DNA from: Thioalkalivibrio halophilus
GTDB lineage: Bacteria > Pseudomonadota > Gammaproteobacteria > Ectothiorhodospirales > Ectothiorhodospiraceae
NCBI RefSeq assembly: GCF_001995255.1
Contig: NZ_MUZR01000004.1
Location: 1-64,000 of the forward strand
Direction: 5' to 3'
Length of the DNA stretch: 64,000 nt
In this document: positions 372 to 26,883 of the stretch, in pieces
How positions within the stretch are numbered: position 1 is the stretch's first letter
Layout: each line of letters begins with the position of its first letter
Translations under genes and position numbers: made by a program
Notes under the pieces: model-generated
What the model saw: only the letters and a program-made list of their open reading frames with translations
What the model was told of the DNA's origin: nothing
The model's database searches: none

Positions 372-484
372 TCGCGAATAACTCCAGTCTATGCGTGCAT
401 AGAAAAGTCTCGTTGGCACCCGGCTCGCCGGGCATCCACAATACGCGGTGGACAACTGAACCGACAGTCAACGAGGTCGCGCCC

Positions 485-3394
485 ATGAGTGCCCTGCCCG
501 AATTCGAAGATCACGGCAAGCAGGAGATCAAGTACACCACCTGTTACATGTGTGCCTGTCGCTGTGGCATCAAGGTCACCGTGGAGGACAACAAGGTCCG
601 CTACATCCAGGGGAACCGGCATCATCCGATCAACAAGGGCGTGCTCTGTGCCAAGGGCAACGCCGGGATCATGAAGCAGCAGTCCCCGGCCCGCCTGCAC
701 CAGCCGATGCGCCGCAAGCCGGGCACCGAGCGCGGCGCCGGCGAGTTCGAGCCGATCTCCTGGGACGAGGCCATCGATACCCTGTCCGAACGCCTGAAAA
801 AGATCCGCGAGACCGATCCGCGCAAGCTGGCGTTCTTTACCGGCCGTGACCAGATGCAGGCCCTGACCGGCCTGTGGGCGACCCAGTTCGGCACCTACAA
901 CTGGGCGGCCCACGGCGGCTTCTGTTCGGTGAACATGGCCGCCGGCGGCCTGTACACCACCGGCTTCGCCTTCTGGGAATTCGGTGATCCCGACTGGGAC
1001 CGCACCAAGTACCACATGCTGTGGGGCGTGGCCGAGGACCATGCCTCCAACCCGATCAAGATCGGGCTGGAGAAGCTCAAGCGCAACGGCGGCAAGTTCG
1101 TGGCCATCAACCCGGTGCGCACCGGCTACCAGGCGATCGCCGACGAATGGGTGGGCATCAAGCCCGGCACCGACGGCCTGTTCGCGCTGTCGATGCTGCA
1201 CGTACTGCTGAAGAACAGCCAGTTCGACTGGGACTTCCTGGTGCGCTACACCAACGCCACCCAGCTGGTGGTGCAGACCCCGGGGCAGCAGGGCGACGGC
1301 CTGATCCTGCGCGACGACAACGGCAACCCGCTGGTCTGGGAGCTGGAGAAGGAAGACTTCGTTGACGGCAGTCAGGTGGACATCAAGCCGGCGCTGTTCG
1401 GCGAGTACACCGCGCCCGACGGCCGCCCGGTCAAGACCGTGATGACCCTGCTGGCCGAGCGCTATCTGGATGACGAGTACTCCCCGGAGAACACTGCCGA
1501 GATCACCGGCGTGCCGGCCGAGCAGACCGAGCGCCTGGCGCTGGAGATGGCCCACGTCGCGTTCAAGGAGACCATCGAGCTCGATATCGAGTGGACCGAC
1601 TCCTGGGGCCGCAAGCACGACAAGGTGTTCGGCCGCCCGGTGTCCATGCACGCGATGCGCGGCATTTCCGCGCACTCCAACGGCTTCCAGACCTGCCGCG
1701 CGATCCACTTCCTGCAGATCATGCTGGGTTCGGTGGACTGCCCCGGCGGTCACCTGGCCAAGCCGCCGTATCCCAAGCACGTCCCGCCGGGCATCAAGCC
1801 GGCGAAGGAATGCGCGCCGAACACCCCGCTGAAGAGCCCGCCGCTGGGGTTCCCGACCGCGCCGGAAGACCTGGTCATCGATGACGACGGCAACCCGCTG
1901 CGCATCGACAAGGCCTATTCCTGGGATGCGCCGATCTCCAACCACGGCATGATGCACATGGTCGTGACCAACGCGGTCAAGGGTGACCCGTACCCGATCG
2001 ACACGCTCATCTTCTTCATGGCGAACATGTCGTGGAACTCCACGATGAACACCGCCGAAGTGATGGACATGCTGCGGGCCAAGGACGAGAACGGCGAGTA
2101 CAAGATCCCGTACCTGGTGGTCTCGGACGCGTTCAACTCCGAGATGGTCAGCTTTGCCGACCTGGTGCTGCCGGATACTACCTATCTGGAACGCTACGAC
2201 ACCATCTCCATGCTCGACCGCCCGATCTCCGAGCCGGCCGCGGCGGCCGACTCCATCCGCCATCCGATTCTCGAGCCGGATCGCGACGTGCGCCCGTGGC
2301 AGGAGGTGATGGTCGAGCTGGCCGGCCGCCTGAAGTTCCCGGCATTCACGAAGGACGACGGCAGCCGCAAGTTTGCCGACTACAAGGACTTCATCGTCAA
2401 CTTCGAGAAGGAGCCGGGCATCGGCTTTCTGTCGGGTTATCGTGGCAAGGATGGCCAGAGCCACCTGCGCGGCGAGCCGAACCCGAAGCAGTGGGAGGCG
2501 TACATCGAGAACCAGGGGTTCTTCATGTATCACCTGCCGGAGAGCCAGCAGTTCTACCGCTACGCCAACCAGGAGTATCTGGAGCTGGCGAAGCACGCCG
2601 GCTGGGTGGGCAAGACCGACCCGATCACCATCGAGCTCTACTCCGAGACCCAGCAGCGCTTCAAGCTGGCCGGTCAGGGCCTGTATGACGGTCCGCAGCC
2701 GACGAAACAGGAGCACAAGGATCGCCTGACCGAGTTCTTCGATCCGCTGCCGATCTGGCACAAGCCGCTGGAGCAGACCCGCATCGACGAGGACGAGTAC
2801 CCGTTCTACGCGGTCAACCAGCGCCCGATGTTCATGTATCACTCCTGGGATTCGCAGAACGCCTGGCTGCGCCAGATCTGTGCCCAGAACTACCTGTACA
2901 TGAACCGCCAGAAGGCCGAGTCCATGGGCATCGAGGACCTGTCCTGGGTGTGGCTGGAGTCGCACAACGGCAAGATCCGCGTGCAGGTGAAGCTGATCGA
3001 GGGCTGCGAGCCCAATACCGTCTGGACCTGGAATGCGATCGGCAAGCAGAAGGGCGCCTGGGGGCTGAAGGACGACGCCAACGAGTCGCAGAAGGGCTTC
3101 CTGATGAATCACCTCATCAGCGAGCTGCTGCCGAAGAAGGGCGACCCGGTGGACGATATCACCAACTCCGACCCGGTCACCGGCCAGGCCGCGTGGTATG
3201 ACCTGAAGGTCAAGATCACGCCGGCCGAGCCGGAGGAAAGGGGCTCCTGGCCGCAGTTCGACAAGGTCAAGGCCACGCCGGGCATGTCCGAATCGCCGGA
3301 CCAGCTGCGCTACCACGCGCACAAGCCCGTGCACCTGAACCGCGACATCCGCGACGTGCTGACCCGCGGCTCGCTGGACGACGACAAGAACTGA
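485..3394 (+). CDS. soeA: Sulfite dehydrogenase (quinone) SoeA, molybdopterin subunit
   Basis: A 969-residue molybdopterin oxidoreductase of the DMSO-reductase superfamily. It has a 4Fe-4S site Cys20-x2-Cys23-x3-Cys27 and Cys55 (VLCAKG), the long Mo-bis-PGD core, and a C-terminal dinucleotide-binding domain near residues 780-900. There is no twin-arginine signal, so the enzyme stays in the cytoplasm. That fits SoeABC, which oxidises cytoplasmic sulfite to sulfate and passes electrons to quinone, rather than exported DMSO, tetrathionate or polysulfide reductases. I chose ATG 485 because a GAGG at 473-476 precedes it by eight bases; an in-frame ATG at 395 would add 30 unmotivated residues. It forms an operon with the 4Fe-4S and membrane subunits. 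Substrate is inferred from subunit pattern and host type. Confidence 0.82.
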   Translation: MSALPEFEDHGKQEIKYTTCYMCACRCGIKVTVEDNKVRYIQGNRHHPINKGVLCAKGNAGIMKQQSPARLHQPMRRKPGTERGAGEFEPISWDEAIDTLSERLKKIRETDPRKLAFFTGRDQMQALTGLWATQFGTYNWAAHGGFCSVNMAAGGLYTTGFAFWEFGDPDWDRTKYHMLWGVAEDHASNPIKIGLEKLKRNGGKFVAINPVRTGYQAIADEWVGIKPGTDGLFALSMLHVLLKNSQFDWDFLVRYTNATQLVVQTPGQQGDGLILRDDNGNPLVWELEKEDFVDGSQVDIKPALFGEYTAPDGRPVKTVMTLLAERYLDDEYSPENTAEITGVPAEQTERLALEMAHVAFKETIELDIEWTDSWGRKHDKVFGRPVSMHAMRGISAHSNGFQTCRAIHFLQIMLGSVDCPGGHLAKPPYPKHVPPGIKPAKECAPNTPLKSPPLGFPTAPEDLVIDDDGNPLRIDKAYSWDAPISNHGMMHMVVTNAVKGDPYPIDTLIFFMANMSWNSTMNTAEVMDMLRAKDENGEYKIPYLVVSDAFNSEMVSFADLVLPDTTYLERYDTISMLDRPISEPAAAADSIRHPILEPDRDVRPWQEVMVELAGRLKFPAFTKDDGSRKFADYKDFIVNFEKEPGIGFLSGYRGKDGQSHLRGEPNPKQWEAYIENQGFFMYHLPESQQFYRYANQEYLELAKHAGWVGKTDPITIELYSETQQRFKLAGQGLYDGPQPTKQEHKDRLTEFFDPLPIWHKPLEQTRIDEDEYPFYAVNQRPMFMYHSWDSQNAWLRQICAQNYLYMNRQKAESMGIEDLSWVWLESHNGKIRVQVKLIEGCEPNTVWTWNAIGKQKGAWGLKDDANESQKGFLMNHLISELLPKKGDPVDDITNSDPVTGQAAWYDLKVKITPAEPEERGSWPQFDKVKATPGMSESPDQLRYHAHKPVHLNRDIRDVLTRGSLDDDKN

Positions 3395-3467
3395 GCCGGC
3401 CCGCCCCGTGGCGGCCCGGCGCCGTCACGGGGCTCGCCCGCACGAACGATCTGAGGGAGTACCAACC

Positions 3468-4163
3468 ATGCGTCTTGGACTCGTAATCGACATGGATACC
3501 TGCGTGGGCTGCCATGCCTGCGCGGTGGCCTGCAAGCAGTGGAACACCAGCGGCACCACCGGACCGCTGACCGACTATCAGCCCTACGGGGAAGACCCCA
3601 GTGGCGTGTGGTTCAACCGCATTCGCCACTATGAGGTCGGGGACTACCCCAACAACAAGACCGTCAACATCCCGATGTCCTGCATGCACTGCGAGCATGC
3701 CGACTGCGTGAACGTCTGCCCGACCGGCGCCTCCTACAAGCGCCCGGAAGACGGCATCGTGCTGGTCGACCAGGACAAGTGCATGGGCTGCAACTACTGC
3801 GCCTGGGCCTGCCCCTACGGCGCCCGCGAGCTGGACCGCGAAGACGGCGTGATGAAGAAGTGCACCCTGTGCGTGGACCGCATCTACGACGAGGCCCTGC
3901 CGCCGGAAGAGCGCCAGCCGGCCTGCGTGATCACCTGCCCGGCGCATGCGCGCTTCTTCGGTGACTTCGACGACGAAGAATCCGAGGTCAGCCGTCTGGT
4001 GCGCGAACGCGGCGGGGTGAAGCAGATGCCCGAGCTGGGCTACAAGCCGGTCAATACGTATCTGCCGCCGCGAGTCACCCGCCCCATTCCCACCGACGAT
4101 GTGCGTGCCAATACGCTGATCAGCTCGGTGAAGGACTGGGTCAACAAGATGGTGGCGCGCTAA
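3468..4163 (+). CDS. soeB: SoeB, four-cluster 4Fe-4S electron-transfer subunit
   Basis: A 231-residue ferredoxin-like subunit that carries electrons from the molybdopterin subunit to the membrane subunit. It starts MRLGLVIDMDTCVGCHAC and shows four cysteine groups: Cys12/15/18/22, CMHCEHADCVNVCPTG, CMGCNYCAWACPYG and CTLCVDRI with a distant CVITC. This is the usual four-cluster pattern of DmsB/NrfC/SoeB proteins. ATG 3468 has a strong GAGGGAG at 3453-3459. It sits 73 bases after soeA and 26 before soeC, so a single transcript is likely. There is no signal peptide, consistent with a complex facing the cytoplasm. Confidence 0.85.
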   Translation: MRLGLVIDMDTCVGCHACAVACKQWNTSGTTGPLTDYQPYGEDPSGVWFNRIRHYEVGDYPNNKTVNIPMSCMHCEHADCVNVCPTGASYKRPEDGIVLVDQDKCMGCNYCAWACPYGARELDREDGVMKKCTLCVDRIYDEALPPEERQPACVITCPAHARFFGDFDDEESEVSRLVRERGGVKQMPELGYKPVNTYLPPRVTRPIPTDDVRANTLISSVKDWVNKMVAR

Positions 4164-4189
4164 AGCGCCGCACCCGGGGAGAAAACACC

Positions 4190-5128
4190 ATGCATCCTGC
4201 ACTTTCCGTCATCCTGTTCACGGTCACTTCGGGCGCCGGCTATGGTCTGTTCGTCCTGCTGGTGATCTTTCATCTGGCCGGCATCGGTCCGGCGATGAGC
4301 CACGGTGAACTGATCGCCCACGGCGTTGCCGCGCTGGGCCTGATTACCTTCGGCCTGCTCCTTTCCACCGGCCACCTGGCGAACAAGAAGAACGCCTGGC
4401 GTTCGTTCATGCGCTTCAAGACCTCCTGGCTCTCGCGCGAGGCGGTGTTTGCCGTGCTGTTCTATCCGTTTGCGCTGGTTTATGGCCTCTGCGTGTTGCT
4501 GTTCGGTCCGGAGATCGGCCCGCTGGGCATGGTGGCCGGCCTGGTGGCCGCGATCCTCGCCGTGATCACGCTGTTCTCGACGGGCATGATCTACGGCTGC
4601 CTGAAGACCATCCGTCAGTGGAACACCGCACTGACCCCGGCCAACTACATCATGCTGGGCGTGGCCACCGGCGCGGTCGCCTATGCGGCCATTGCCAGCG
4701 CCTTTGGCAACGCCACCGCGATGCACGCCGGCGTGGCCATCGTGATGCTGCTGATCGCCGCGGTCCTCAAGGGGATCTACTATTTCTGGATCTCGCGCGT
4801 GACCGGCCCGACGATCAACACGGCCACCACCTTCAACCGTGCCACGGTGCGGCTGCTGGATACCGGCCACACCGCCGGTACGTTCCTGACCGACGAGTTT
4901 GGTTACGACCCGGGCAAGAACACCACGGACATCCTGAAGATGGCGGTGTTCCTGCTGGGCTTTATCGTCCCCGCGCTGGTGTTCGCGGCGGTGCTGACCG
5001 GCGCCCCCGCAGCGATCGGCTGGCTGGCCCTGGTGTCTACCCTGATCGGGGTCGGCATGGAGCGCTGGCTGTTCTTCGCCGAGGCCAAGCACGTGGTCCG
5101 CCTGTATCACGGTGCCCAGCACACCTGA
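4190..5128 (+). CDS. soeC: SoeC, NrfD/DmsC-type membrane anchor subunit
   Basis: A 312-residue integral membrane protein with about eight hydrophobic segments, beginning MHPALSVILFTVTSG. Length and profile fit the DmsC-like anchor family, which binds quinone and takes electrons from the iron-sulfur subunit. With soeA and soeB it completes a three-subunit sulfite:quinone oxidoreductase. A GGGGAGA ribosome binding site precedes the ATG. A perfect stem-loop follows 25 bases after the stop, marking the operon end. DmsC-like proteins diverge quickly, so partner identity rests on the operon. Confidence 0.82.
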   Translation: MHPALSVILFTVTSGAGYGLFVLLVIFHLAGIGPAMSHGELIAHGVAALGLITFGLLLSTGHLANKKNAWRSFMRFKTSWLSREAVFAVLFYPFALVYGLCVLLFGPEIGPLGMVAGLVAAILAVITLFSTGMIYGCLKTIRQWNTALTPANYIMLGVATGAVAYAAIASAFGNATAMHAGVAIVMLLIAAVLKGIYYFWISRVTGPTINTATTFNRATVRLLDTGHTAGTFLTDEFGYDPGKNTTDILKMAVFLLGFIVPALVFAAVLTGAPAAIGWLALVSTLIGVGMERWLFFAEAKHVVRLYHGAQHT

Positions 5129-5153
5129 CCCGACGCGGCCGTAGTGCCGCAGC

Positions 5154-5193
5154 AAAAGACCCCGCAACCGGGTTCCCGGGTGCGGGGTCTTTT
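5154..5193 (+). terminator. Rho-independent terminator of soeABC
   Basis: A perfect 13-base-pair stem (AAAAGACCCCGCA at 5154-5166 with its complement at 5181-5193) encloses a 14-base loop and ends in TTTT. The A-run at the 5' side would let it also serve the minus-strand gene at 5246 in the other direction. Confidence 0.9.
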
Positions 5194-5245
5194 CGTTCAG
5201 GGGAACCCGACGCAGATGCCCGTCGGGTCGTTCGGGGATGCCGGG

Positions 5246-5380
5246 TTACTTGTTCTTGCCGGCCTCGCGCACGTTGTGCACGACCACATAGCCCACCCAG
5301 CCGAGGAAGACAAGGATGCCTAGCAGGGTCGCAATGGTCAGGATGCCGATCGGGGACTGAAACAGGATTTCGGTAATCAT
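5246..5380 (-). CDS. Small single-pass membrane protein, DUF3149-like
   Basis: A 44-residue protein, MITEILFQSPIGIL followed by a hydrophobic stretch (about residues 11-35) and a short charged tail ending REAGKNK. The layout resembles the DUF3149 family of tiny proteobacterial membrane proteins, which begin with a short F-S-P/D-x-G-x-L motif before one helix; this is resemblance by eye. The mRNA carries GGGAGAG just before the ATG, so it is probably translated. It is monocistronic between the soe terminator and the response-regulator gene, which is transcribed in the same direction and ends 75 bases upstream. Function unknown. Confidence 0.6.
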   Translation of the reverse strand: MITEILFQSPIGILTIATLLGILVFLGWVGYVVVHNVREAGKNK

Positions 5381-5455
5381 GGCGCTCTCCCTGTGGTATA
5401 TGCCGCACCTGCTACGAAAATAGACCTGTTCCCCGCGGGGCTGCCATGACCTGTC

Positions 5456-7318
5456 TCAATCTTTCGGCGGCTCTTCCTCTCTGGCGCTGCCGTTGACGAC
5501 CACACAGTTGCGTCCCCGGGATTTGGCCGCGTAGAGGGCATCATCGGCCCGCCGCAGCGCATCGTCGGCGCCCCTGTCGTCCGCGCGAAGGATGGTCACC
5601 CCGATGCTGGTCGTCACCCCGGTGGTGTTCGGGCGTTCGGGCTGCGGCTCCATCGCCTCCACACGGGCCCGTACGCGCTCCGCGGTGTGCTCGGCGCCTT
5701 CCGGCGAGGTGCCGTGGAGGAGGATCGCGAATTCCTCGCCGCCCAGGCGTGCGGCGCGGTCGCCGGCCCGCAGCGCGGATGCGATACAGTCGGCGAACTC
5801 GACCAGCACCTGATCGCCGATCTCGTGACCGTAACGGTCGTTGAACCGCTTGAAGTGGTCGATGTCCAGCATCAGCAGGCCGGCGGTGTAGCCCGGTTCC
5901 CGGCGCATGCGCGCGTATTCGCGCTCCAGTTCGTCCATGAACAGCCGGCGGTTGGCCAGCCCGGTCAGCGGGTCGGTGCGCGCCAGCGTTTCCAGGCGCT
6001 GCTCCATTCGTTTGTGTTCGGTGATGTCCTGGACCACGCCCACCATGCGCCGGGCGTGCTGATCACGGTCGCGCTCGATCACTTGCCCTGCATCCAGCAG
6101 CCAGGCCTCGGACCCGGAGGGGTGGCGCACCCGGAATTCCGCGGAATAGCGCAAGGTTTCGCCCGCGAGGTGTCGCTGCAGCGCGGTGTCCCGGCGCTCG
6201 CGATCATCCGGATGCAGGACCTGCTCCCACAGCGTTATGGGCCCGATTCCTTCCGCCTCCGCCAGGCCTGTGAGCTCGCCCCAGCGGCGGTCGACATACA
6301 TCGAATCCTGATCGACCCGCCAGTCCCACAGACCCAGGTGGGCCCCTTCGAGTGCGGCGGCCATGCGCGCCTCCGATTCGCGGACCCGTCCCTCCAGACT
6401 CGCGCGGCTGCGGGCATAGCGGATCGCGCGCACCAGGGTGGAGGTCTCGATACGACCCTTGACCAGGTAGTCCGCCGCCCCGGCCTCCAGTGTCCTGAGA
6501 GCGAAATCCTCGTCGTCGTAACCGGTCAGCACGATGATCGGCGTCTCCCGGAACCACTCGCGTGCGGCGCGTACGGTGTACAGCCCGGTGCTGTCAGGCA
6601 GTGACAGGTCGAGCAGAACGACGGCGGGCGACACCTTGTCCAGGACCTGCGGCACCGCCGACAAACGGTCGACCCAGGTGACGTCGAAGCGATCGCGGGC
6701 GGAGCCCCGCAGGCCGAAGCGCACCAGGTCGGCGTCTCCCGGCTCGTCTTCCACCAGTAGCACCGGCACGCCCTCCCTGCGGGTGTCCTCCGGGGCCGTT
6801 GCATGGTCTCCGCCTTTCCGGGGCGCTTCCGGCGAGGCGTCGCGACGCTCGGTCGGGGAAGGGGCGGGGGTCGGAGACGGGGCGTGCTCCGCCAGCGGCA
6901 GGTTCCAGTCCTGCGCCAGTCGCTGTACCCGGACGCAGAACTGTTCCATGTCCAGCGGCTTGACCATGTAGTCGGCCGCACCGTTTTGCCGGCTGGCGCG
7001 GATGTCGCGTTCCAGATCCGAGGTGGACAGGACGACCACCGGGGTCGCGTCCGCCTGATCGGTTTCGCGCAGGCGTTGCAGGAACTCCAGGCCGCCCATG
7101 TGCGGCATGTTCAGGTCCAGCAGGATCAGCCCCGGCTGCGGGGCATGGTCGTAGGGCGCCTCACCCGCCAGAAACCGCAGGGCCTCGCGCCCGTCGTTCA
7201 CGTGATGCAGGCGCGCGGTGACCCCGGCTTCCTCGAAGGCCATGCGCGTCAGGTGGACGTCCGCCGGTTCGTCTTCCACCAGCAGGACGTCGGTGACCGG
7301 CTCGGCGTTCTCGCTCAT
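5456..7318 (-). CDS. Response regulator with two REC domains, PAS and GGDEF (diguanylate cyclase)
   Basis: A 620-residue cytoplasmic protein. Receiver 1 (about residues 9-135) has its acceptor Asp in LILLDLNMP. A proline/serine-rich linker follows, then receiver 2 (about 180-300) with VVLLDLSLP, a PAS domain (about 320-440) and GGDEF (about 455-610). The active site is GGEEF near residue 525, an active variant, and RAGD five residues before it matches the product-inhibition I-site. It should make c-di-GMP when phosphorylated. I chose the ATG at 7316-7318, which gives MSENAEPVTDVLLVEDEP, because reading further upstream only adds residues that overlap the kinase gene. It follows the kinase by 22 bases and is its likely output partner. 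Confidence 0.88.
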   Translation of the reverse strand: MSENAEPVTDVLLVEDEPADVHLTRMAFEEAGVTARLHHVNDGREALRFLAGEAPYDHAPQPGLILLDLNMPHMGGLEFLQRLRETDQADATPVVVLSTSDLERDIRASRQNGAADYMVKPLDMEQFCVRVQRLAQDWNLPLAEHAPSPTPAPSPTERRDASPEAPRKGGDHATAPEDTRREGVPVLLVEDEPGDADLVRFGLRGSARDRFDVTWVDRLSAVPQVLDKVSPAVVLLDLSLPDSTGLYTVRAAREWFRETPIIVLTGYDDEDFALRTLEAGAADYLVKGRIETSTLVRAIRYARSRASLEGRVRESEARMAAALEGAHLGLWDWRVDQDSMYVDRRWGELTGLAEAEGIGPITLWEQVLHPDDRERRDTALQRHLAGETLRYSAEFRVRHPSGSEAWLLDAGQVIERDRDQHARRMVGVVQDITEHKRMEQRLETLARTDPLTGLANRRLFMDELEREYARMRREPGYTAGLLMLDIDHFKRFNDRYGHEIGDQVLVEFADCIASALRAGDRAARLGGEEFAILLHGTSPEGAEHTAERVRARVEAMEPQPERPNTTGVTTSIGVTILRADDRGADDALRRADDALYAAKSRGRNCVVVNGSAREEEPPKD

Positions 7319-7340
7319 CGGGTGGTCTCCACGGGCCCCT

Positions 7341-10300
7341 TCATCCGTTCGATTCGTTATCAGTCTGCTCGTCGCCCGGGATCCGGCGGGGTATCCGGAA
7401 CCAGAAGGTGCTGCCGTGTCCCGGTCCGTCCGATTCGGCGCCGATGCGGCCGCCGTGATGTTCCACGATCCGGCGGCACAGCGCCAGACCGATACCGCTG
7501 CCCTCGTATTCGCCGTGACCGTGCAGGCGCGAGAAGACCCGGAACAGTCGATCCTCCTGATCCTGCGGGATGCCAACCCCGTTGTCGCGCACGCGGACCT
7601 CCCAGTGGTCGCCATCGATGCGTCCGTCGATGCGGACCTCGGGGCGCGTGTCGCCCGGCACGTACTTCAGCGCATTGTCGATCAGGTTCTGCAGCAGGCG
7701 TACCAGCTCGTCCTGGCTGGCGACCAGGCGCGGCCAGTCGCCTTCGACGTCGATGCGCGCGGATGTTTCGGTCACTGCCGGCTGCAGGAACGCCAGAGCG
7801 GTGTCCAGGACCTCGCGGGTGTCCAGCGGAGCCATGGGGTCGGTCTTGCGTCCCACTCGGGAGTATTCCAGCAGGCCCACGATCATGCGGTCCATGCGTC
7901 GGGCGCCCTCGGTGGCGTAACCGAGGAAACGCTGCTGGTCGGCATCCAGCTGTTCGCCCAGGCTGCGCTCCAGCAGCTGCAGGTAGCTGCTGACCATGCG
8001 CAGCGGCTGGCGCAGATCGTGGGATACCCCGTAGGCGAACTGCTCCAGCTCCTCGTTGGAGCGGCGCAGCTCCAGATTCAGCCCTTCCAGGGCCTGTTGC
8101 ACCCGGTGGCGTTCCAGTACGTTGCCCAGCAGGTCCGCCACGTGCCGCAGGGTCTCGGCATCCTCCGGCCCCCAGGATGCCGTGCCGTGTACGTCCACTA
8201 CACCCAGCAGGCCCACGGGGTCGCCGGCGGCCTGTAGCGGAGCGGCCATCATCGCCCGTATGCCCAGAGCCCGCATGAGCTCGTGTTCGGCGGAGGAGCT
8301 CTCGCCGGTGTGAGCGTTACCGGGCATCTGCATCAGCTGTCCCTGCTCCATCCGTTGCCGCCAGGCCGGCAGATCGTCCAGGTTCAGCGCCTGCAGTTCA
8401 TCCTTTTTCCGCGGGATGCCCGGGGCCGCCCATTCGTGGGTGTTGTCCATCAGCGACCCGTTGCGCCGCAGCAGAAGAACCGCGGACCGGCTGGCTCCCA
8501 GCAGTTCCCCCAGCACCTCCAGCGATTCCTCGATCGCCCGGTCCACGTCGCGTCGGGTCACCAGACGCGTAGCGATGTCGGAGGTCGCGCGGTCGGCGGC
8601 CTGGCGCCGGGCCAGGGCTTCTTCCGTGGCCTTGCGTTCGGTGATGTCGAGCACCGTCCCCAGCATCCACAGAGGCGTGCCCTCGTCGTCGAATTCGACC
8701 TCGCCCTGCTGGTAGACCGTGCGGATCTCGCCGTCCGGGCGCAGGATCCGGTGTTCCACCCGGTAGGGCACACCCGGGCCGCTCACCGAGGCATCGATGG
8801 CCGCGCGGACCGTGTCGCGGTCGTCGGGGTGGACCCGTTCCATGAAGGCCGCCTCGGTCGCGCCCCATTGGTCGTGGTCCAGTCCGAAGATGCGGTAGAC
8901 CTCCTCTGACCAGCGGATCTCGCCGGAGCGGAAATCGGATATCCAGTTGCCCATGTGGGCGATGCGCTGGGCCTCGGCCAGTTCGTTCTCGCGCTGGCGC
9001 AGCTCGGCCTCGACCTCCTTGAGCCGCTGGATGTCGACGTGGATGCCCGTCATTCGCCGCGGCTCGCCCAGCGGGCCCCACTCGACCACGCGTCCTCGAC
9101 CCAGGGTCCACAGCCATCCACCGTCGGCAAGGCGGTAGCGGAACTCGATGGAGAATTTCCCGCCCTCGGCCAACTGGCGCTGTACTTCCGCTTCCGCCTG
9201 GACAAGATCCTCCGGGTGGATCCGGTTGCGCCAGTCCTCGTAGGCCAGCAACCGGCCCTCCCCCGGGTCCTCGCCCAGCATGCGCCAGCACTGATCATCC
9301 CAGTGGATCCGGTCTTCCGGGACATCCCATTCCCAGATGCCGAAGCGCGCGGCCTCCTGGGCCAGGCGGAAGCGGGCCTCGCTGTCGGCCAGGGCCCGTT
9401 CCATCACCTTGCGCACCGAGATGTCCTGGAAGGACACCACCACGCCGGTCAGTTCGCCGGTGTCGTCGCGCGTGGGCGAGGCGTAGACCAGGACCGGGAA
9501 GGCCTCACCGTCCTGGCGCCAGAAATGATCTTCCCAGGCCTCCACCGTCTCGCCACTGAGCAGGACCCCGTGGATCGGGCATTCTTGCGCGGGATAATGC
9601 GAGCCGTCGGGATGGCTGTGATGTGTCGTGGCGTGAGAATCCCGCCCCAGGGCCTCGGTCTGGTCGGCGAAGCCCAGCAGGCGACAACCGGTGGGGTTGA
9701 TGAAGCTGAAACGACCCTCCCGGTCGATGCCGAACACGCCTTCGCCCAGGCTGGCCAGCAGGTTCTCGCGGAAGCGGCGTTCCTCGCTGCGCGCAACCTC
9801 CATCGTGAATCGCTGGCTGACGTCGCGCACGATCATCAGCACTTCGCGGTCGTTCAGCGGGACCACCCGGGCCTCGAAATGGCCGGGCATGCCCAGTGCA
9901 GTCGTGTCGTATTCGAAGTCGCGGACCTCGCCGCTGTCCAGTGCCTCGCGGATCGCCCGCGTCCCCTGTTCCGCATAGGCGGGCGGGAACAGCTCGTCCA
10001 GGCGCCGCCCGAGAAACTCCTCGGGTGGCATCAGCAGCATCTCTTCCGAGACGGCCTCGCATTCGATGAAGGTGCCGTCGCGGTCCATGCGGAACAGGCT
10101 GTCCGGCAGGGCCCGCATCAGTGCGCGCGCGTGGGCCTCGCTGCGCTCCAGCGCCGCCGCCTTGTCTTCCAGTTCCCGGCGCACGGTCGTCAGGCGACGG
10201 TTCACCAGGACCAGGCCGAGGATCAATGCGAGCATGAGACTGCCGACCACCAGCGTCAGGGTGACCTGCTGGCCGTAGACCTGCATGAATTCCCGCAGGG

Positions 10301-11213
10301 TAAGCTGCGGGAGGGCATCGAAGGGCGGCAGTCGGAGTTCGCGTGCCAGCTCCTCTACCGGTTCGTAGTCCATGGGTACCGCAAAGCCGTCGATACCCGC
10401 GGCCTGCGCGGGTGCCGACTGGCGGTCCAGTTCCAGCAGGGCGACCAGCATGCGGTGACTGAGCTCGCGGGGTACGTGGCCAATCGCGATGAACGGCCAT
10501 TCCGGATACAGCCGGGTGGACAGCGCCAGCGGGAAATCCGCCATGTCCTGGCGGGCGATCACTCGGATCTCCTCCGGGTCGATCCGACCGGCATCCTGCA
10601 GGCGTTCCAGGACCCCGATTCGCACGAACCCCACGTCCGCTTCGCCGTCCAGCACCCGTTCCACCACACGGTCGTGTGGCATCCCGGTGAATTCGATGTC
10701 TGCATCACGCGGTGTCGCGCCGCGTTCGCGCAGTTCCCGCGCCTGGGCCTGGTAGCCGCCCAGTGATTCGGGCACTACGGCCGCGATTCGCTGCCCGGCG
10801 ACGTCTTCCCAGTCCTGGATGTGATCGTGGTCGGCGCGGGTAAAGGCGACTCCGCCGAATCCGCGTACCGGTGTTCCTTTTCGCACCGGGATCAGGGTCG
10901 CCAGGGCACCCGACAGATGGCTGTCGCTGCGAATGCGGATGAAATGGGTGGGGTTGGTCAGCAGGAAATCCAGCCGGTTGTTGCGCAGCTCCTGATCCAG
11001 CGCCGAGTATTCGGCGATCACCGCGTCCACCGTCACATCATCCAGTTCCGCGTCCAGGTGCTGGATCAGCGGCTCCCAGCGATCCCGGGCCACATCTTCC
11101 GGTTCGAAGGCCAGGATCCCCACGGTCACGCTGCGTTCGGCCACCGCCGGTGTTGCCGCCAGCATCAGCAGGGCGATAAGCAGGGGTGCCGCGATCCCGA
11201 TTGCGTATCTCAT
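7341..11213 (-). CDS. PhnD-type binding domain fused to multi-PAS/GAF histidine kinase
   Basis: A 1290-residue membrane sensor. A signal peptide ending ATPAVA (about 1-25) leads into a periplasmic domain of the PhnD phosphate/phosphonate-binding type (about 28-300). After a transmembrane helix (about 318-340) come four PAS domains (about 360-870), a GAF domain (about 880-1030), a HisKA domain with VSHDLRQ (His near 1062) and an ATPase domain with N (NLIDNALKY), G1 (DNGVGI) and G2 (GSGIGL) boxes. It is a complete kinase without its own receiver. Its ATG overlaps the stop of the upstream binding-protein gene (ATGA), so the two are translationally coupled. The ligand is unknown; phosphate or phosphonate is suggested only by the fold and the divergent Na/Pi transporter. 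Confidence 0.88.
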   Translation of the reverse strand: MRYAIGIAAPLLIALLMLAATPAVAERSVTVGILAFEPEDVARDRWEPLIQHLDAELDDVTVDAVIAEYSALDQELRNNRLDFLLTNPTHFIRIRSDSHLSGALATLIPVRKGTPVRGFGGVAFTRADHDHIQDWEDVAGQRIAAVVPESLGGYQAQARELRERGATPRDADIEFTGMPHDRVVERVLDGEADVGFVRIGVLERLQDAGRIDPEEIRVIARQDMADFPLALSTRLYPEWPFIAIGHVPRELSHRMLVALLELDRQSAPAQAAGIDGFAVPMDYEPVEELARELRLPPFDALPQLTLREFMQVYGQQVTLTLVVGSLMLALILGLVLVNRRLTTVRRELEDKAAALERSEAHARALMRALPDSLFRMDRDGTFIECEAVSEEMLLMPPEEFLGRRLDELFPPAYAEQGTRAIREALDSGEVRDFEYDTTALGMPGHFEARVVPLNDREVLMIVRDVSQRFTMEVARSEERRFRENLLASLGEGVFGIDREGRFSFINPTGCRLLGFADQTEALGRDSHATTHHSHPDGSHYPAQECPIHGVLLSGETVEAWEDHFWRQDGEAFPVLVYASPTRDDTGELTGVVVSFQDISVRKVMERALADSEARFRLAQEAARFGIWEWDVPEDRIHWDDQCWRMLGEDPGEGRLLAYEDWRNRIHPEDLVQAEAEVQRQLAEGGKFSIEFRYRLADGGWLWTLGRGRVVEWGPLGEPRRMTGIHVDIQRLKEVEAELRQRENELAEAQRIAHMGNWISDFRSGEIRWSEEVYRIFGLDHDQWGATEAAFMERVHPDDRDTVRAAIDASVSGPGVPYRVEHRILRPDGEIRTVYQQGEVEFDDEGTPLWMLGTVLDITERKATEEALARRQAADRATSDIATRLVTRRDVDRAIEESLEVLGELLGASRSAVLLLRRNGSLMDNTHEWAAPGIPRKKDELQALNLDDLPAWRQRMEQGQLMQMPGNAHTGESSSAEHELMRALGIRAMMAAPLQAAGDPVGLLGVVDVHGTASWGPEDAETLRHVADLLGNVLERHRVQQALEGLNLELRRSNEELEQFAYGVSHDLRQPLRMVSSYLQLLERSLGEQLDADQQRFLGYATEGARRMDRMIVGLLEYSRVGRKTDPMAPLDTREVLDTALAFLQPAVTETSARIDVEGDWPRLVASQDELVRLLQNLIDNALKYVPGDTRPEVRIDGRIDGDHWEVRVRDNGVGIPQDQEDRLFRVFSRLHGHGEYEGSGIGLALCRRIVEHHGGRIGAESDGPGHGSTFWFRIPRRIPGDEQTDNESNG

Positions 11214-12181
11214 CGGGGGTCCTCGCGTGGCAGCAGGTCGTGGCGTACCAGCTCATCTCCAAAGTCGCGGTCCAGCGGTGCGCCTGCGTCTTCCGACAGA
11301 CCGGCAATCTCCCGTGCCGCCAGCAGGACCCGGGAGTCGGAACCATCCAGAAGCCGGCGGTTGCTGGCCGGGTCCGGCAGCACCAGTCCACGGAAGGTCT
11401 CCATGGCGCGGTGGCCGGGGACCCCGAGGCGTTCCGCCATGCGGTAGCCCGCGTCCACCGGATTGGCGCGCAGGTGATGCAGGGCACGGAAATGCGCCGC
11501 GATCAGGTGGCGGGTTGATCGCTCGAGGCGTTCCAGGTGGCCGGCCTCGATCGCGAGGACATCGAAGATCGTGTCCGGCATCGCCCGGCTGTCGAACAGG
11601 ACGTGCGCGCCGTCGTCCCGCAGGCGGTCGGCGACGGGCTGATAGGTCACCACGGCATCCACTTCATCCCGCTCCCAGGCGGCCTCCTGCTCGTCGATGG
11701 TCAGCGACACGGTTTTCACCTGGTCACGACCGAGGCCCGCCGTGTCCAGGGTGTGGTGGAGCATCAGGGCCCCCAGGGCCGAGTCTTCCACGCCGACCCG
11801 GCGCCCGGCCAGATCTTCCAGGGCCTCGATTCCGGGGCGCGCCAGCACCATGTCGGCCCCCGCGGAGATGTTGAAGACCAGCACGATGCGAAGATCCGTC
11901 CCCCGGGCGCGCACCCGCAGCACCTCATCCAGGGTCAGCGCCGCACCATGGACCTCTCCGGTGGCCAGCCGGCGCATGGATTCGCTGGCGGAGGCGGTCT
12001 CGCGCAGTCGGACCCGCTCGGGGTCCAGCCAGCCCATGGCCCGCGCCAGGAACATCGGCTCGTAGCCCGGCCATACGTGGCCGGCAATCTCCAGTGGCGG
12101 CTCCGGGCGGCCACAGGCCCCCAGCAGGGCGGGGAGGGTGGCGCCAGCGGCGACCAGAAAATGGCGTCGATCCATGTACAT
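11210..12181 (-). CDS. Tat-exported substrate-binding lipoprotein (NMT1/SsuA type)
   Basis: About 321-323 residues. The N-terminus carries a twin-arginine motif (DRRHFLV) and a lipobox ending LLGAC, so it should be Tat-exported and lipid-anchored. The mature part resembles periplasmic binding proteins of the NMT1/SsuA/TauA group, which bind sulfonates, nitrate or thiamine precursors. No permease or ATPase gene accompanies it. Instead its stop overlaps the start of the PhnD-fused kinase, suggesting a ligand-delivery or co-sensor role. Two in-frame ATGs (12181 and 12175) differ by two residues; the second places the Tat motif at residues 3-4. Ligand cannot be told from sequence. Confidence 0.8.
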   Translation of the reverse strand: MYMDRRHFLVAAGATLPALLGACGRPEPPLEIAGHVWPGYEPMFLARAMGWLDPERVRLRETASASESMRRLATGEVHGAALTLDEVLRVRARGTDLRIVLVFNISAGADMVLARPGIEALEDLAGRRVGVEDSALGALMLHHTLDTAGLGRDQVKTVSLTIDEQEAAWERDEVDAVVTYQPVADRLRDDGAHVLFDSRAMPDTIFDVLAIEAGHLERLERSTRHLIAAHFRALHHLRANPVDAGYRMAERLGVPGHRAMETFRGLVLPDPASNRRLLDGSDSRVLLAAREIAGLSEDAGAPLDRDFGDELVRHDLLPREDPR

Positions 12182-12284
12182 GTCCGCGTCTGGCGGGGGC
12201 GGCCCGGCTGGTCCGGGCGGTTGATAAGGTGTTCCAGTCTACAGCCTCCCGGTCCGGTGCGTCCCCGTTGGTTACAATGCCGCG

Positions 12285-13955
12285 ATGAATGGCGAATGGA
12301 TGATCACCTTCGAGATCGCGGCCACGCTGTTCGCCGGCCTCGGGCTGTTCTTCGTCGGTATCCGGCTGATCGGCGAACACCTGCGCCAGCTCGCGGATCA
12401 GCGCCTGCGGGCGCTGGTGGGGCGCGCGACCGGTTCCAGCCGCGCGGCGGCCCTGCTCGGTCTGGTCGGCGGGGCCATCACGCAGAGCATCCACGCGGTG
12501 ATCTTCGTGCTGATCTCGCTGGTGACCGCCGGCGTGCTGGACGCCCGGCGGGCGCAGCCGGTGATCAACTACGCCAACCTCGGGACCTCGCTGCTGGTCC
12601 TGATCGCTGCGCTCGATCTGACCCTGCTGGTGTTCATCCTCGTCGGGGTGACCGGACTGCTGTTCTACTTCGATCGCGACCGGTCGGCGCGGGTGCGCCA
12701 CCTGATCCGGGCCATGCTCGGCATCGGGCTGCTGTTCCTCGGCCTGATGTTCATCAAGGAGGGGGCCAAGCCGCTGAGCGAACTGGCCTGGATGACCGAT
12801 CTGATGTCGCTGTCGGCGCAGTCGCTGCTGATCGCGTTCGTGACCGGACTGGTGTTCGCGGTGATCGCGCATTCGGCTTCCAGCATCACCATCGTGACCA
12901 TGGCGCTGGCGGCCGGCGGCGTGATCGATCTCGAATACGGCCTGGTGGTGGTCTACGGGGCGAGCTTCGGCACGGGCCTGTCGACCCTGATCCTGGCCGC
13001 CTCGCACAAGGGGCTGGGGCGCCAGCTGGCGCTTTACCAGTTCATCCTGAAGGGGCTCGGGCTGCTGGTGCTGCTGCCACTGTTCTGGATAGAGTTCTAT
13101 GGTGGCATCCCGTTGGTGGCCGCCGCGTTGCAGGCTACGGGAGCCGGCATCGGCCTGCAGATCGCGTTCGCCTATATCCTCTACCAGGTGGTCTGCGACC
13201 TCGCGATGCACCCGGTCCACGGCCGGGTCTCCCGGTTCCTCGAGCGCACGGCCCCGCCCACCGAGGAAGAAGCCCTGGGCAAGCCCCGCTTCATCTATGC
13301 CGGGGCCCGCAATGATGCCGGATCGGCCCTGGTGCTGGCGGAACAGGAACAGCTGCGGCTGCTGCAGCGACTGCCCGATTATCTGGACGCCGTGCGTGAC
13401 GACGCCGATGGCGCCGGACACGATCGGCGGGCCCTGCACCGCGGCAATCTGCAGGTGACCGAGGCGATCGAGCGTTTTCTCGACGATATCCTGTCCGGGG
13501 CGCTGAGCGGGGCCACGCTCGACCACGCAATCGTGCTGAAGAACCGCAACCAGCTCCTGCACCAGCTTGAGGAGACCCTGAACGACCTTGCCACGGAGAT
13601 CGAACGGGCCCGGCGGGCGGGCGCCGGCAGCGAGGCCGGCGCACTGACCCACAACGTGGCCGAGACCCTGCACATGATGCTGCTGACGCTGAATGATGCG
13701 GCGCGCACCGGCGATCCCGAGGACATCGCCCTGCTGCAGTCCCTGACCCACGACCGCTCCGAGCTGATGGATTCGATCCGTCGCCGGCTGCTGGCTTCCG
13801 GGGATCTGGACGGGGCCGTGCGCGAGGCGGTCTTTGGCGCGACCAGCCTGTTCGAACGCGGTATCTGGGTGCTCCGGCGCTATGCGCTGTTGCTGGACCC
13901 GCCGGCGGGTGCGTCGTACGAGGCCGGGCCCGCGACCGAGGGTGTGGCTACGTAG
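12285..13955 (+). CDS. Na/Pi cotransporter family protein with PhoU-like tail
   Basis: A 556-residue membrane protein. The first ~330 residues hold many transmembrane helices with the two inverted repeats of the Na/Pi-cotransporter family: GAITQS near residue 65 and the related IAHSASS near residue 200. The C-terminal ~220 residues are helical and charged, like PhoU domains that end bacterial NptA/YjbB-type proteins. The likely role is sodium-coupled phosphate movement, direction unknown; YjbB of E. coli exports phosphate. It diverges from the binding-protein/kinase operon with only 103 bases between, so shared control is plausible. It ends nine bases from the convergent GGDEF-EAL gene with no terminator visible. 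Confidence 0.85.
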   Translation: MNGEWMITFEIAATLFAGLGLFFVGIRLIGEHLRQLADQRLRALVGRATGSSRAAALLGLVGGAITQSIHAVIFVLISLVTAGVLDARRAQPVINYANLGTSLLVLIAALDLTLLVFILVGVTGLLFYFDRDRSARVRHLIRAMLGIGLLFLGLMFIKEGAKPLSELAWMTDLMSLSAQSLLIAFVTGLVFAVIAHSASSITIVTMALAAGGVIDLEYGLVVVYGASFGTGLSTLILAASHKGLGRQLALYQFILKGLGLLVLLPLFWIEFYGGIPLVAAALQATGAGIGLQIAFAYILYQVVCDLAMHPVHGRVSRFLERTAPPTEEEALGKPRFIYAGARNDAGSALVLAEQEQLRLLQRLPDYLDAVRDDADGAGHDRRALHRGNLQVTEAIERFLDDILSGALSGATLDHAIVLKNRNQLLHQLEETLNDLATEIERARRAGAGSEAGALTHNVAETLHMMLLTLNDAARTGDPEDIALLQSLTHDRSELMDSIRRRLLASGDLDGAVREAVFGATSLFERGIWVLRRYALLLDPPAGASYEAGPATEGVAT

Positions 13956-13964
13956 ACCGCGTTT

Positions 13965-16900
13965 TCATTCTTCCGGCCGGGATTCATGTGCGCCGATCAG
14001 GGCGCGGATCGCACCGGTCATCTGGTTGCTCAACGCCTCCATCTCGCCAAACCGGGCGAGGGCCCGTGCGGCGTGACCCTCGCGTTTGAGCCGGACCAGC
14101 TCGTCGCCCAGCTGATGGACCTGATCGTGCAGGGCGTGGATCGACGGCACGCGGTCGCCGTCGGGGTCATGGGCATGCAGCCAGCGACCGAACGGGCACC
14201 GTCGCGGATCCGGCTCGGGCGGCCATTCCGTCCGGTCCTGCAGGAACTCCTGCAGCGAGTTGACCCAGGCGCGGTGGGCGACGATGCCGAACAGCATCGG
14301 GCGCAGCTCGTTCGCGACCGGCGTGGCCTGCGTCCAGCTGGCGTGCGGCTGCCACTGCGCCTGCCACGACAGCAGCTGGTCGGCGGGCATGGGGCGGGCG
14401 ATGGCATAGCCCTGGGCCATTTCGCAGCCCAGCTGCAGCAGCATCTCGCCGTGCAGTTCGGTCTCCACCCCTTCGGCGATCACTTCGCGCTGGAAGCTCC
14501 CGGCCAGCCCGATGATCCCGTGCAGGATGGACAGGTCATCCGGGTCGTACAGCATGTCGCGCACGAAGCTCTGGTCGATTTTGAGGGTCTCGACCGGCAG
14601 GCGCTTGAGATAGGACAGCGAGGAATAGCCGGTACCGAAATCGTCCAGCGAGAAACGCACGCCCAGTTCCCGGCACTCGTGGATCAGGGACGACACGTGG
14701 GTGATGTCCTGCAGGGCGCTGGTCTCGACCACTTCCAGTTCCAGATCCCCGGGCTGTACCCGGGGGTGGCGGGCGAGGGCGGCGCGCAGCCCGGCGATGA
14801 AGTAGGGGTCGCTCAGCTGCAGCGCATCCACGTTGACGCTGACCGTCAGCGGGCGGCCCTGTTCGCGCCACTGTTCGATCTGCGCGAGCACCATGTCGAT
14901 CACCCGGCTGCCCAGCTCCACCATCAGCGGATGGCCTTCCAGCTGCGGCAGGAATGCGCCCGGGGGCCGCAGGCCGTGCTCCGGATGCTGCCACCGGATC
15001 AGGGCTTCGGCCCCCACCAGTTCGCCGTTGCGCATCGACACCTTGGGCTGGTAGAAGAGCACGAACTCGTCGTTCGCCAGGCCCTGGCGGATGGCCTCCA
15101 GGGCTTCGTGCTGATCGCGCAGGTTGCGATCGAATGCCACATCGAACAGGTGGTAGCGGTCCCCGCCGGCCAGCTTGGCCTGATACATCGCCTGGTCCGC
15201 CTGACGCAGCAGCTGGTCGGCGTCCATGGGTTCGGCCTGGGGATACAGGCTGACCCCGAGGCTGGCGGTGACCTGCAGGCGGTGACTGCCGTCGTGCACC
15301 GGGCGGGAAGCGGTCTCGCGCAGGCGCTGCAACAGCGGCTGGGCGGATTCCACGTCCGGCAGGTCCAGCAGCACCGCGACGAACTCGTCGCCACCCAGCC
15401 GCGCCAGCGTATCGCCTTCGCGCAGGCATCCCTTCAGACGCTCCGCCAGTGCCACCAGCATGCGATCGCCCACCTCGTGGCCGTGACCGTCGTTGATCTC
15501 CTTGAAGCGGTCCAGGTCGAGGTAGACCAGCGCCAGTTGTTGTCCACGCCGCGCCTCCTGGGCCATGGCCTGATGCAGACGGTCGGCCAGCAATACCCGG
15601 TTGGGCAGCTCGGTGAGCGCGTCGAAATGAGCCATGTATTCCAGCTGACGCTGCTGTTCCTTCAGCGGGGTGATGTCGGAGAACAGCCCGACATAGCGCT
15701 GGATCGCGCCCTCGCCATCGCGAACCGCGCTGATGGTCAGCATCTCGGCGTACAGTTCGCCGTCCTTGCGCCGGTTCCACACCTCGCCCGACCAGCTTCC
15801 CTCGGCCCGGAGGGTCTGCCACAGGTCCGCGTAGAAGGCCTCGTCGTGCTTGCCGGACTGCAGCATGCTCGGATTGCGGCTCAGCACCTCCTCGCGCCGG
15901 TAGCCGGTGATGCGCGAGAAGGCGGTATTCACGTCGAGGATGCGGCCCTGCGGGTCCGTGATGAGGATCCCCTCGTTGGCATGATGGAAGACGCTGGCGG
16001 CCTGCATCAGCCGATCTTCGGCCTCGCTGCGCTGCATCTCGGAGGCAACACGGTCAACGAACAGCCCGAGCATCGCGGGGGCCAGTTCGTGCAGGCGCTC
16101 TTTCAGCGGCTGGCGACTCAGGGTCACCAGGATGCCCAGGGCCCGGCCCTGCCGATCCATCAGGTTGTGGCCGACATAGGCCTCGATGTCCATCTCCTCG
16201 AGCAGGTGGTCCTGCGGGAACAGGCTCCGGATGTTCTCCGGGTAACAGGCGGTACCGTCTTTCGTCACGTTGGCACAGGGGGTGCCAGCCAGATCGTAGC
16301 GGAAGGGCGTCAGTGGCTGACCGTCGGCCCAGCCGGCAAACGCCTCCACCCGATGCTGCCCCTCCTCCAGGCGGCCGACGAAGGCGATCTCGGTCCCGAG
16401 CGATTCGCACAGCAGGCGGCAGGCACGCTGGAAGAACTCCTCGCCGCCCAGCCGGGCCAGTTCACCGTTGAGCGTGGAGAGGGTCTGTTCGATGAGCTTG
16501 TGTTCGGTGATGTCACGACTGATGCCGAACACGCCGCGCACCCGCCCCTGGGGGTCGAACAGCGGCCACTTGTGGGTTTGCACGTAACCCGGGCGGCCAT
16601 CGGCATCGTAGAACGGGTCGACCCGATTGAGTATTGGCCGGCCCTCGGCAAAGATGGCTTTCTCTTCCTCCTCGTAGATCCGCGCGGTATCCGCGGGGAA
16701 GATCTCGCGATCATGCTTGCCCACCATCTCGCGCCAGTCATCGTGCCCGGTGACGCGTGCCATCGGCTGGCTGCAGAAGCGGATGCGGCTTTGCGCGTCC
16801 TTGAAATAGATGAAATCGGTGGTCTGGTCGAGGAAGGTGTGAAAGTCCTCGCTGAAGGTCCGCAGGCGCTCTTCGATACGGCGGCGCCGGCGGATGTTCA

Positions 16901-17486: not shown

Positions 17487-18005
17487 GCGCCTCCGGACGC
17501 GGGACGCCCGCGTGCACCCGGGCGGCGGGTGGCGGGTGGCGAGTCTGCATCGCGAGGGGGATGCCGGTTTCCGGAAATCATGCGCTACCGATCAGGCGAA
17601 AATGCTGGCCAATGTACTGCACGACCGGCCTTGAACACCATATTTTCAAGGCCTCGTGCGCCGAGACCGCAACGGGAAGACCCGTTGAGAAACCGGGGGA
17701 CGGCAGGGCCATGGGAGCCTGCCACGATTCCGCGTGCTTGAGCCAGTGGAGTCGTTCCGTCAATGCCTGCCCGTTTCGGAACGTCCCCGCAGCGCATGCA
17801 CAGGAACGTCCGCTGCCAGTGCTCGAATGCGGGGCGCCAGTTTGACGCGGGGGGTGCGCGGGCTCCCCGGGACCCGGCAGGACGTGTATTCGGGATGCTG
17901 TACCGGGCTGCCCGGGCGCCGCCGGTGATCTCGGCGGCGATTCTGGTTCGGTGCCGCGAGCGGGGGTAGAGTTGTGAGCCACGCACAATCAGGGAGGACC
18001 CAGGG
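17487..18005. other. Hairpin-rich intergenic region without a supported gene
   Basis: This 519-base gap lies between divergent genes. It holds three stem-loops within 115 bases: GCACGA/TCGTGC plus GGCCTTGAA/TTCAAGGCC around a nine-base loop (17619-17659), AACGGG-AAGA-CCCGTT (about 17670-17685) and GGCAGG/CCTGCC (about 17702-17723). Open frames here on the minus strand have poor codon character and no recognisable product. No match to a known riboswitch class was apparent. It may be a noncoding RNA, a long 5' leader for the GGDEF-EAL gene or the remnant of a mobile element. Confidence 0.45.
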
Positions 18006-19040: not shown

Positions 19041-19055
19041 CGGCCGGCCGTCAGG
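19036..19055. repeat. 20-base perfect palindrome at the Rpn stop codon
   Basis: CCTGACGGCCGGCCGTCAGG is perfectly self-complementary and contains the TGA stop at 19038-19040. It can form a strong hairpin but lacks a following T-run, so it is a weak terminator candidate or a stabilising 3' end. Confidence 0.55.
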
Positions 19056-19232
19056 CCAGCCGGATGGCCTTCCGTCTGCGTGCTCCGTACGCTCGCCGAG
19101 GACCGGTTCCGGCACAAAAGCTCGGAGCCGTGCATCTCGCCTGCCCCGTCTTCAATGTCGTCATCGGCCGTTGTGGGAGGTTCACCGATGAACCACCCGG
19201 ATCGGATGGCAGGGCCTGGATCTTGCGGGAAA

Positions 19233-19309
19233 TGGCGCGCCCGAGAGGATTCGAACCTCTGACTTCCACCTCCGGAGGGTGGCGCTCTATCCAGCTGAGC
19301 TACGGGCGC
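19233..19309 (-). tRNA. tRNA-Arg (anticodon CCG)
   Basis: The minus strand folds as a complete tRNA. The acceptor stem is GCGCCCG/CGGGCGC, the D arm is GCTCAGCTGGATAGAGC, the anticodon stem is CCACC/GGTGG with loop CTCCGGA (anticodon CCG), and the T arm contains GGTTCGAATCC. The discriminator is G and CCA is encoded (19233-19235). A CATACT (complement at 19318-19323) is a plausible -10 element about eight bases ahead of the 5' end. It decodes CGG, a frequent codon in this GC-rich genome. Confidence 0.96.
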
Positions 19310-23983: not shown

Positions 23984-24007
23984 CATGCCGGTGCGGGACG
24001 GGAAGCG

Positions 24008-24033: not shown

Positions 24034-24054
24034 GATCAAGGATGACGGGAGTGC

Positions 24055-26866: not shown

Positions 26867-26883
26867 ACCGGGCCTTCGGTCGC

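Follow-up and report, generated by a model that had tools for sequence, protein, structure and literature searches.

In a 64,000-nucleotide stretch of the Thioalkalivibrio halophilus genome (contig NZ_MUZR01000004.1, positions 1 to 64,000; hereafter the window), we found a lipoprotein, a sensor histidine kinase, and a response regulator that are encoded in tandem and that probably act as one receptor pathway. The lipoprotein would be a detachable ligand-binding subunit of the kinase and not of an ATP-binding cassette (ABC) importer. The analysis, which is sequence-based throughout, draws on the gene architecture, the coupling of the lipoprotein gene to the receptor gene, the conservation of this pair, the co-inheritance of lipoprotein and sensor domain, and the intact catalytic motifs. 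We also tentatively propose a phylum-spanning receptor family in which one conserved lipoprotein plugs into interchangeable receptors; in the branch whose receptors carry a PhnD domain, which includes the window, one Venus-flytrap protein would read another and two ligands would converge on one cyclic di-GMP (c-di-GMP) signal.

Coupling of the lipoprotein gene to receptor genes

The minus-strand operon consists of the genes for the lipoprotein (12181-11210, 323 aa), the kinase (11213-7341, 1290 aa), and the regulator (7318-5456, 620 aa), as defined by open reading frames (ORFs) and Pfam domains. A preliminary description of the locus had the first two genes overlapping by ATGA, the regulator following 22 bases later, a Na/Pi cotransporter gene diverging 103 bases from the lipoprotein start, and no permease or ATPase alongside. 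All of this holds: the lipoprotein stop and the kinase start share the ATGA at 11213-11210, the regulator ATG is at 7318 and the kinase TGA at 7343-7341, the Na/Pi ORF spans 12285-13955 on the plus strand, and neither a permease nor an ATPase adjoins the three genes among the window ORFs and their Pfam matches. The lipoprotein N-terminus, MYMDRRHFLVAAGATLPALLGACG, carries the lipobox LGAC, and the protein matches NMT1 (PF09084, 7.6e-14). Its AlphaFold2 (AF2) model (predicted local distance difference test (pLDDT) 95.6) has TauA as best PDB match (6ssy, TM 0.81, Z 29.0) and shows the fold of the TauA/SsuA importer binding proteins.

A search of 77 relatives with the lipoprotein alone found 15 close family members, and in all 15 the end of the lipoprotein gene overlaps or directly adjoins the beginning of a gene for a membrane signalling protein. 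At least 256 relatives emerged when named genomes were scanned, and the best 80 loci were read; remote members may differ. We define the lipoprotein-receptor module as a lipoprotein of this family (A2) followed by a membrane receptor whose start lies -15 to +30 nt from the lipoprotein stop, and the window locus is one such module. Start codons in the survey are candidates, and proteins not scanned with Pfam had their domains labelled with phmmer and a home-made HAMP profile. A possible partner start falls within this interval in 85 of the 93 loci with a downstream ORF (an NTGA overlap is possible in 55), and because 85 of 93 related loci are coupled, the pairing is far beyond chance.

Modules were found in Proteobacteria, Planctomycetota, Cyanobacteria, Nitrospirota, Nitrospinota, Aquificota, Spirochaetota, and others. 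Counting the window and 94 loci, the partner is PhnD-type in 22, HAMP-type in 63, and other or without clear assignment in 10; its output is GGDEF with or without EAL in 52, a histidine kinase in 30, and without clear assignment in 13. HAMP-type partners have a short periplasmic domain with no confident Pfam match, a HAMP domain, usually PAS or GAF, and the output domain. Conservation of the whole block had been suggested as a check: the lipoprotein-receptor pair is widespread, and the exact three-gene form was seen only in the window and in a sister genome, G012, with a related PhnD-kinase and REC-GGDEF-EAL arrangement in Methylotuvimicrobium.

It is conceivable that the lipoprotein is an ordinary binding protein of an ABC importer, that the permease and ATPase lie elsewhere, and that the place before the kinase is incidental. 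Its fold and nearest structures are those of the importer proteins TauA and SsuA, and the T. halophilus genome holds several permease-like genes as well as one NMT1-type binding protein that adjoins a permease. We nevertheless consider this explanation highly improbable. A permease and ATPase are found neither at the lipoprotein locus nor as shared neighbours across related loci, and the lipoprotein scores below the NCBIfam importer cut-offs (SsuA_fam, 85.6 versus 163.5; taurine_ABC_bnd, 43.5 versus 304). The only widely shared neighbour clusters in the 80 loci found with the lipoprotein alone are the lipoprotein itself (75 loci) and its partner (72 loci); this clustering revealed no permease or other gene cluster conserved beside the module and, as a clue to the ligand, no shared neighbour above genus level. 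In the control, a permease-like gene adjoins at least 11 of the 15 next-nearest NMT1 proteins (21-31% identity), so importer relatives of this kind do stand beside permeases. The receptor coupling in 85 of 93 loci argues against the importer explanation as well, as does the tracking of the lipoprotein by sensor type.

Co-inheritance of the lipoprotein and the sensor domain

A careful maximum-likelihood tree of 95 lipoproteins was built, and the traits of their partners were compared with shuffled labels. The partner type, PhnD versus HAMP, changes once on the lipoprotein tree (ultrafast bootstrap (UFBoot)/Shimodaira-Hasegawa approximate likelihood ratio test (SH-aLRT) 100/96; shuffled mean 19.6), and the output, kinase versus c-di-GMP, changes 13 times (shuffled mean 24.5). 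One change of sensor type against 13 of output shows that the lipoprotein stays, and evolves, with the extracellular side of the receptor, and that the output is swapped. To map a contact surface, we looked for residues that tell lipoproteins with a PhnD partner from those with a HAMP partner, and a single clear position, 156, emerged.

The PhnD domains tell a similar story. The 21 lipoprotein-linked PhnD domains and three split ones form one clade (100/99), apart from 25 TtrS-like PhnD sensors. No lipoprotein was found within about 1.5 kb of these 25, which include a second PhnD protein of the T. halophilus genome.

The split domains come from three Methylo(tuvi)microbium genomes in which the lipoprotein stands without an adjoining partner. 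Searching these three genomes with a PhnD profile was a test that could have gone against the pairing, and it located a paired-clade PhnD kinase elsewhere, with 361-374 bits versus at most 284 for unpaired proteins. In the two of these genomes where its surroundings were read, the split kinase gene lies directly downstream of a REC-PAS-GGDEF-EAL regulator gene. The split lipoprotein and the split PhnD domain each group with the same four loci (L063, L065, L069, and L072) in their own trees (SH-aLRT 96; 100/98). The split case shows that the association can outlive gene linkage.

Ligand pockets and a proposed path to c-di-GMP

In TauA, the amine is bound by Glu106, Thr132, and Asp205, and the sulfonate by Gln30 and main-chain Gly61, Gly79, and Thr132 (PMC6906117). 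In our alignment, Glu106 and Asp205 correspond to D86 and D183 of the lipoprotein, neither of which varies among 73 sequences; Gln30 corresponds to Trp13. Because the acids match the amine-binding residues of TauA and Gln30 is replaced by Trp, the lipoprotein pocket looks suited to an amine-, guanidinium-, or zwitterion-type ligand over a simple oxyanion, and the earlier suggestion that it binds an oxyanion is not supported. Both D86 and D183 are also present in urea/guanidine-type importer proteins of family TIGR03427 (L020-type, 540 bits).

Pfam assigns to the kinase a periplasmic PhnD domain (Phosphonate-bd, PF12974, 5e-44; aa 31-279, window 10377-11123), four PAS domains, a GAF domain, and a HisKA and HATPase_c core (aa 1056-1277, window 7383-8048). 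Hydrophobic segments lie at aa 1-19 (signal/TM) and 314-332 (TM), and the H-box at aa 1064 has the intact motif SHDLRQPL. The AF2 model of the PhnD domain (pLDDT 87.5) matches PtxB, ArrX, and AioX in the PDB. A PhnD-like sensor fused to a histidine kinase is the organization of TtrS, and all 21 paired PhnD domains match the TtrS model (NCBIfam NF040750); the window kinase reaches 171 bits and its PhnD domain alone 118.5, below the cut-off of 750 bits. The STS-H oxyanion motif of PtxB/PhnD is not retained, in that nearly all paired PhnD domains have x-L-G where PtxB has its phosphite-binding STS (PMC5700983), and the His is mostly kept.

The HAMP-type partners use the same lipoprotein family with a short periplasmic domain and no recognised binding fold, which is what would be expected if the PhnD domain were ligand-free and merely a docking platform for the lipoprotein. 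This seems rather unlikely to us, given that the cleft-type motifs TNPxH, [LF]GG[YF]Q, and LYPEWP are as conserved in the paired PhnD domains as in the unpaired TtrS-like sensors.

The genomic context offers one hint of a ligand class. Molybdopterin/Fe-S/DmsC-type oxidoreductase genes (Pfam) lie at 395-5128 on the plus strand, convergent with the operon, and from their organization we take them to be SoeABC-like. They are kept in G012 (96% identity) and have relatives near the module in Sulfuricella (L132); SoeABC-like genes stand by the module in just two lineages. As metabolic context, such an enzyme would suit a refinement of the receptor pathway, not opposed to it, in which thiosulfate, tetrathionate, or sulfite is the ligand of the PhnD domain and the lipoprotein acts as co-receptor for a sulfonate or a ligand that bears an amine, e.g., taurine. 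The precedents are TtrS, which senses tetrathionate, and ThsS, which senses thiosulfate (PMC5408782). We regard this refinement as possible, if doubtful: the match of all 21 paired domains to the TtrS model is offset by the missed cut-off, and the [LF]GG[YFW] and LYPEWP motifs are common to paired PhnD domains and unpaired TtrS-like sensors. The neighbouring oxidoreductase genes are a hint and no proof, and sulfur genes are not conserved at most loci. Likewise, the correspondence of TauA Glu106 and Asp205 to the invariant D86 and D183 (PMC6906117) favours it, and the change of Gln30 to Trp13 and the occurrence of the same acids in urea/guanidine-type importer relatives do not.

The third gene product has the Pfam domains REC-REC-PAS_3-GGDEF. 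Receiver 1 (PF00072, 6926-7288) and receiver 2 (PF00072, 6419-6763) both have full phospho-Asp pockets, retaining the acid pair, the phospho-Asp, and the Lys. The GGDEF diguanylate cyclase domain (PF00990, 1.2e-47, 5507-5980) keeps its GGEEF active site intact, and an RxxD inhibitory site (I-site) lies 5 residues upstream. The dual-receiver output was initially thought unusual, which overstates it; REC-REC-GGDEF is the architecture of PleD, which is the top NCBIfam model for the regulator at 210.7 bits, under the equivalog cut-off of 474 bits (PRK09581). Sixteen PhnD-type partners have a GGDEF or GGDEF-EAL of their own, and GGDEF or GGDEF-EAL genes stand next to the PhnD kinase genes in the window, in G012, in one Magnetococcales genome (L071), and in Methylotuvimicrobium; almost every PhnD-type member leads to c-di-GMP. 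A c-di-GMP output is well supported in the PhnD branch and is not universal across the module.

Our current model is that the TauA-fold lipoprotein, tethered in the cell envelope, would serve the kinase by docking, loaded or empty, on its periplasmic PhnD domain. That domain may itself have a second ligand, of the thiosulfate/tetrathionate type. The signal would pass through the membrane helix (aa 314-332) and then through the PAS/GAF stack to set the autophosphorylation of the H-box histidine (at about aa 1065). One receiver of the REC-REC-PAS-GGDEF regulator, or both, would accept the phosphate, and the phosphorylated regulator would make c-di-GMP. The contact between lipoprotein and kinase, the ligand classes, the direction of the response, and the phosphotransfer are predicted from sequence. 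Of the original proposal that two binding proteins detect an anion and set c-di-GMP, the model keeps the functional pair without a transporter and the path to c-di-GMP; the phosphate or anion reading is not supported.

Several observations weigh against the proposed pathway. The unpaired PhnD sample was picked by TtrS score, with only about 1.5 kb of flank at each locus, and the split Methylo(tuvi)microbium case is a single evolutionary event. The distance correlation between lipoprotein and sensor (rho 0.47-0.68) is little above that between lipoprotein and catalytic domains (0.42-0.48) and is confounded by species descent, too much so for this mirror-tree approach to be used as evidence. As for the output, the hybrid PhnD kinase of L064 has no visible c-di-GMP gene nearby, and HAMP-type kinases lead mostly to plain receivers or other kinases.

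All five PhnD-type genes found in the T. halophilus genome adjoin signalling genes, and no PhnD importer was seen. Three encode free PhnD proteins (C62, C11, and C70, at loci L172, L173, and L174), which stand by a GGDEF protein, by a kinase and sigma-54 regulator in an AioX-S-R-like set, and by a HAMP-PAS-GGDEF-EAL protein, respectively. Another locus (L170:4026-11250, gene C47) encodes PhnD-GGDEF-EAL in one protein, adjoining cyanase, a sigma-54 activator, and an ABC-type permease with a binding protein; this is possibly a cyanate-linked c-di-GMP sensor.

Flanking genes and known systems

The Na/Pi-cotransporter-like gene (12285-13955, plus strand; PF02690, Na_Pi_cotrans, 9e-34) is judged to be outside the system. 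In a DNA comparison, window positions 1402-12251, the tRNA-Arg gene (19233-19309), and 25805-27583 are conserved in G012; missing at its locus are 12252-19231 (Na/Pi, GGDEF-EAL-CZB, and transposase-like genes) and 19355-25804 (pgaABCD). G012 keeps the module and the other flank without the Na/Pi gene. Because segment 12252-19231 is absent at the sister locus, the Na/Pi neighbour is a species-level insertion or loss.

The PhnD fold and this neighbour had led to the suggestion of a phosphate or phosphonate circuit, in which both binding proteins sense P-oxyanions and the Na/Pi transporter is a functional partner. As in the window, Na/Pi genes do occur near modules in four Marinobacter genomes and at L139, with three lineages seen versus about 0.16 genomes expected within 5 kb. 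However, the window protein (P0004) is not orthologous to the Na/Pi proteins of Marinobacter or G012 (no match or 25%), the gene is missing from the sister's otherwise conserved locus, and the phosphite-binding STS of PtxB is x-L-G in nearly all paired PhnD domains (PMC5700983). The phosphate circuit is thus very unlikely, and the sister comparison together with the mostly non-orthologous Na/Pi proteins near other modules led us to reject it as the principal explanation. The proposed check of the link between the block and Na/Pi transporters gave an above-chance association in three lineages that these same findings undercut.

Na/Pi genes may be loosely associated with genes for c-di-GMP proteins. 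The 7-kb segment missing at the sister locus also holds a minus-strand gene (13965-17486), convergent with the Na/Pi gene, for a PAS-GAF-GGDEF-EAL protein with a terminal CZB zinc-binding domain, and another Na/Pi gene, in G012 (C6), is likewise convergent with a related GGDEF-EAL gene.

Next to the tRNA-Arg gene lies a pgaABCD-like poly-N-acetylglucosamine operon (19359-25804) encoding the PgaA barrel, the PgaB deacetylase/GHL13, the PgaC glycosyltransferase, and PgaD. PgaCD is activated by c-di-GMP in E. coli, and the operon could be a downstream target of c-di-GMP. The ORF at 25232-26866 on the plus strand encodes a PgaD domain together with two cytochrome c domains; the sister match starts only at 25805, and the ORF may have arisen at a junction of the inserted pga segment.

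Among known systems, NspS is PotD-like and MbaA is a GGDEF-EAL protein. In Vibrio cholerae and Sinorhizobium, NspS-MbaA has a free periplasmic binding protein that relays polyamine to a membrane c-di-GMP receptor (PMC8967002, PMC9993111). The window system shares the free binding protein, the membrane c-di-GMP receptor, and the lack of an importer (the contact being predicted here) but combines an NMT1/TauA-fold lipoprotein with a PhnD kinase and a separate GGDEF regulator. TtrS and ThsS likewise fuse a PhnD-type periplasmic domain to a kinase, and of 154 non-redundant kinases of this type, 131 adjoin a regulator gene (PMC5408782); in contrast to the window, the TtrS-like loci checked have no lipoprotein partner, the window kinase scores far under the TtrS cut-off, and its regulator is a diguanylate cyclase. 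AioX-AioS-AioR is likewise a two-component system that begins with a dedicated binding protein (PMC5908839), but AioX is free and PhnD-like, whereas here the free protein is NMT1-like and PhnD is inside the kinase. TauA and SsuA share the fold and, for TauA, the amine-binding acids (PMC6906117); unlike them, the lipoprotein has a lipobox, is receptor-coupled, lacks the sulfonate Gln, and has no permease or ATPase. PleD shares REC-REC-GGDEF, to which the window regulator adds a PAS domain between receiver 2 and GGDEF; both of its receiver pockets are complete, and its score is under the PleD cut-off.

Each of the elements is already known singly: kinases with a fused PhnD domain (PMC5408782), c-di-GMP receptors driven by a binding protein (NspS-MbaA), and regulators of the REC-REC-GGDEF form (PleD). 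We found no description of the lipoprotein family as receptor subunits in a literature search that covered few subscription papers, so novelty is not proven; the lipoprotein-receptor module appears undescribed so far, and the three-gene form is one branch of it. According to a 2022 census, the periplasmic-binding-protein clan comprises 27 Pfam families and is common in c-di-GMP proteins, yet work on c-di-GMP networks has dealt with SBP_bac_3 only (PMC8846402). The module offers a conserved and testable entry, with the same lipoprotein family beside kinases, diguanylate cyclases, and GGDEF-EAL enzymes, and identifying one ligand could inform the assignment of inputs for a large family of orphan receptors. 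If our proposal is true, genes annotated as lone ABC substrate-binding proteins would be reread as receptor subunits.

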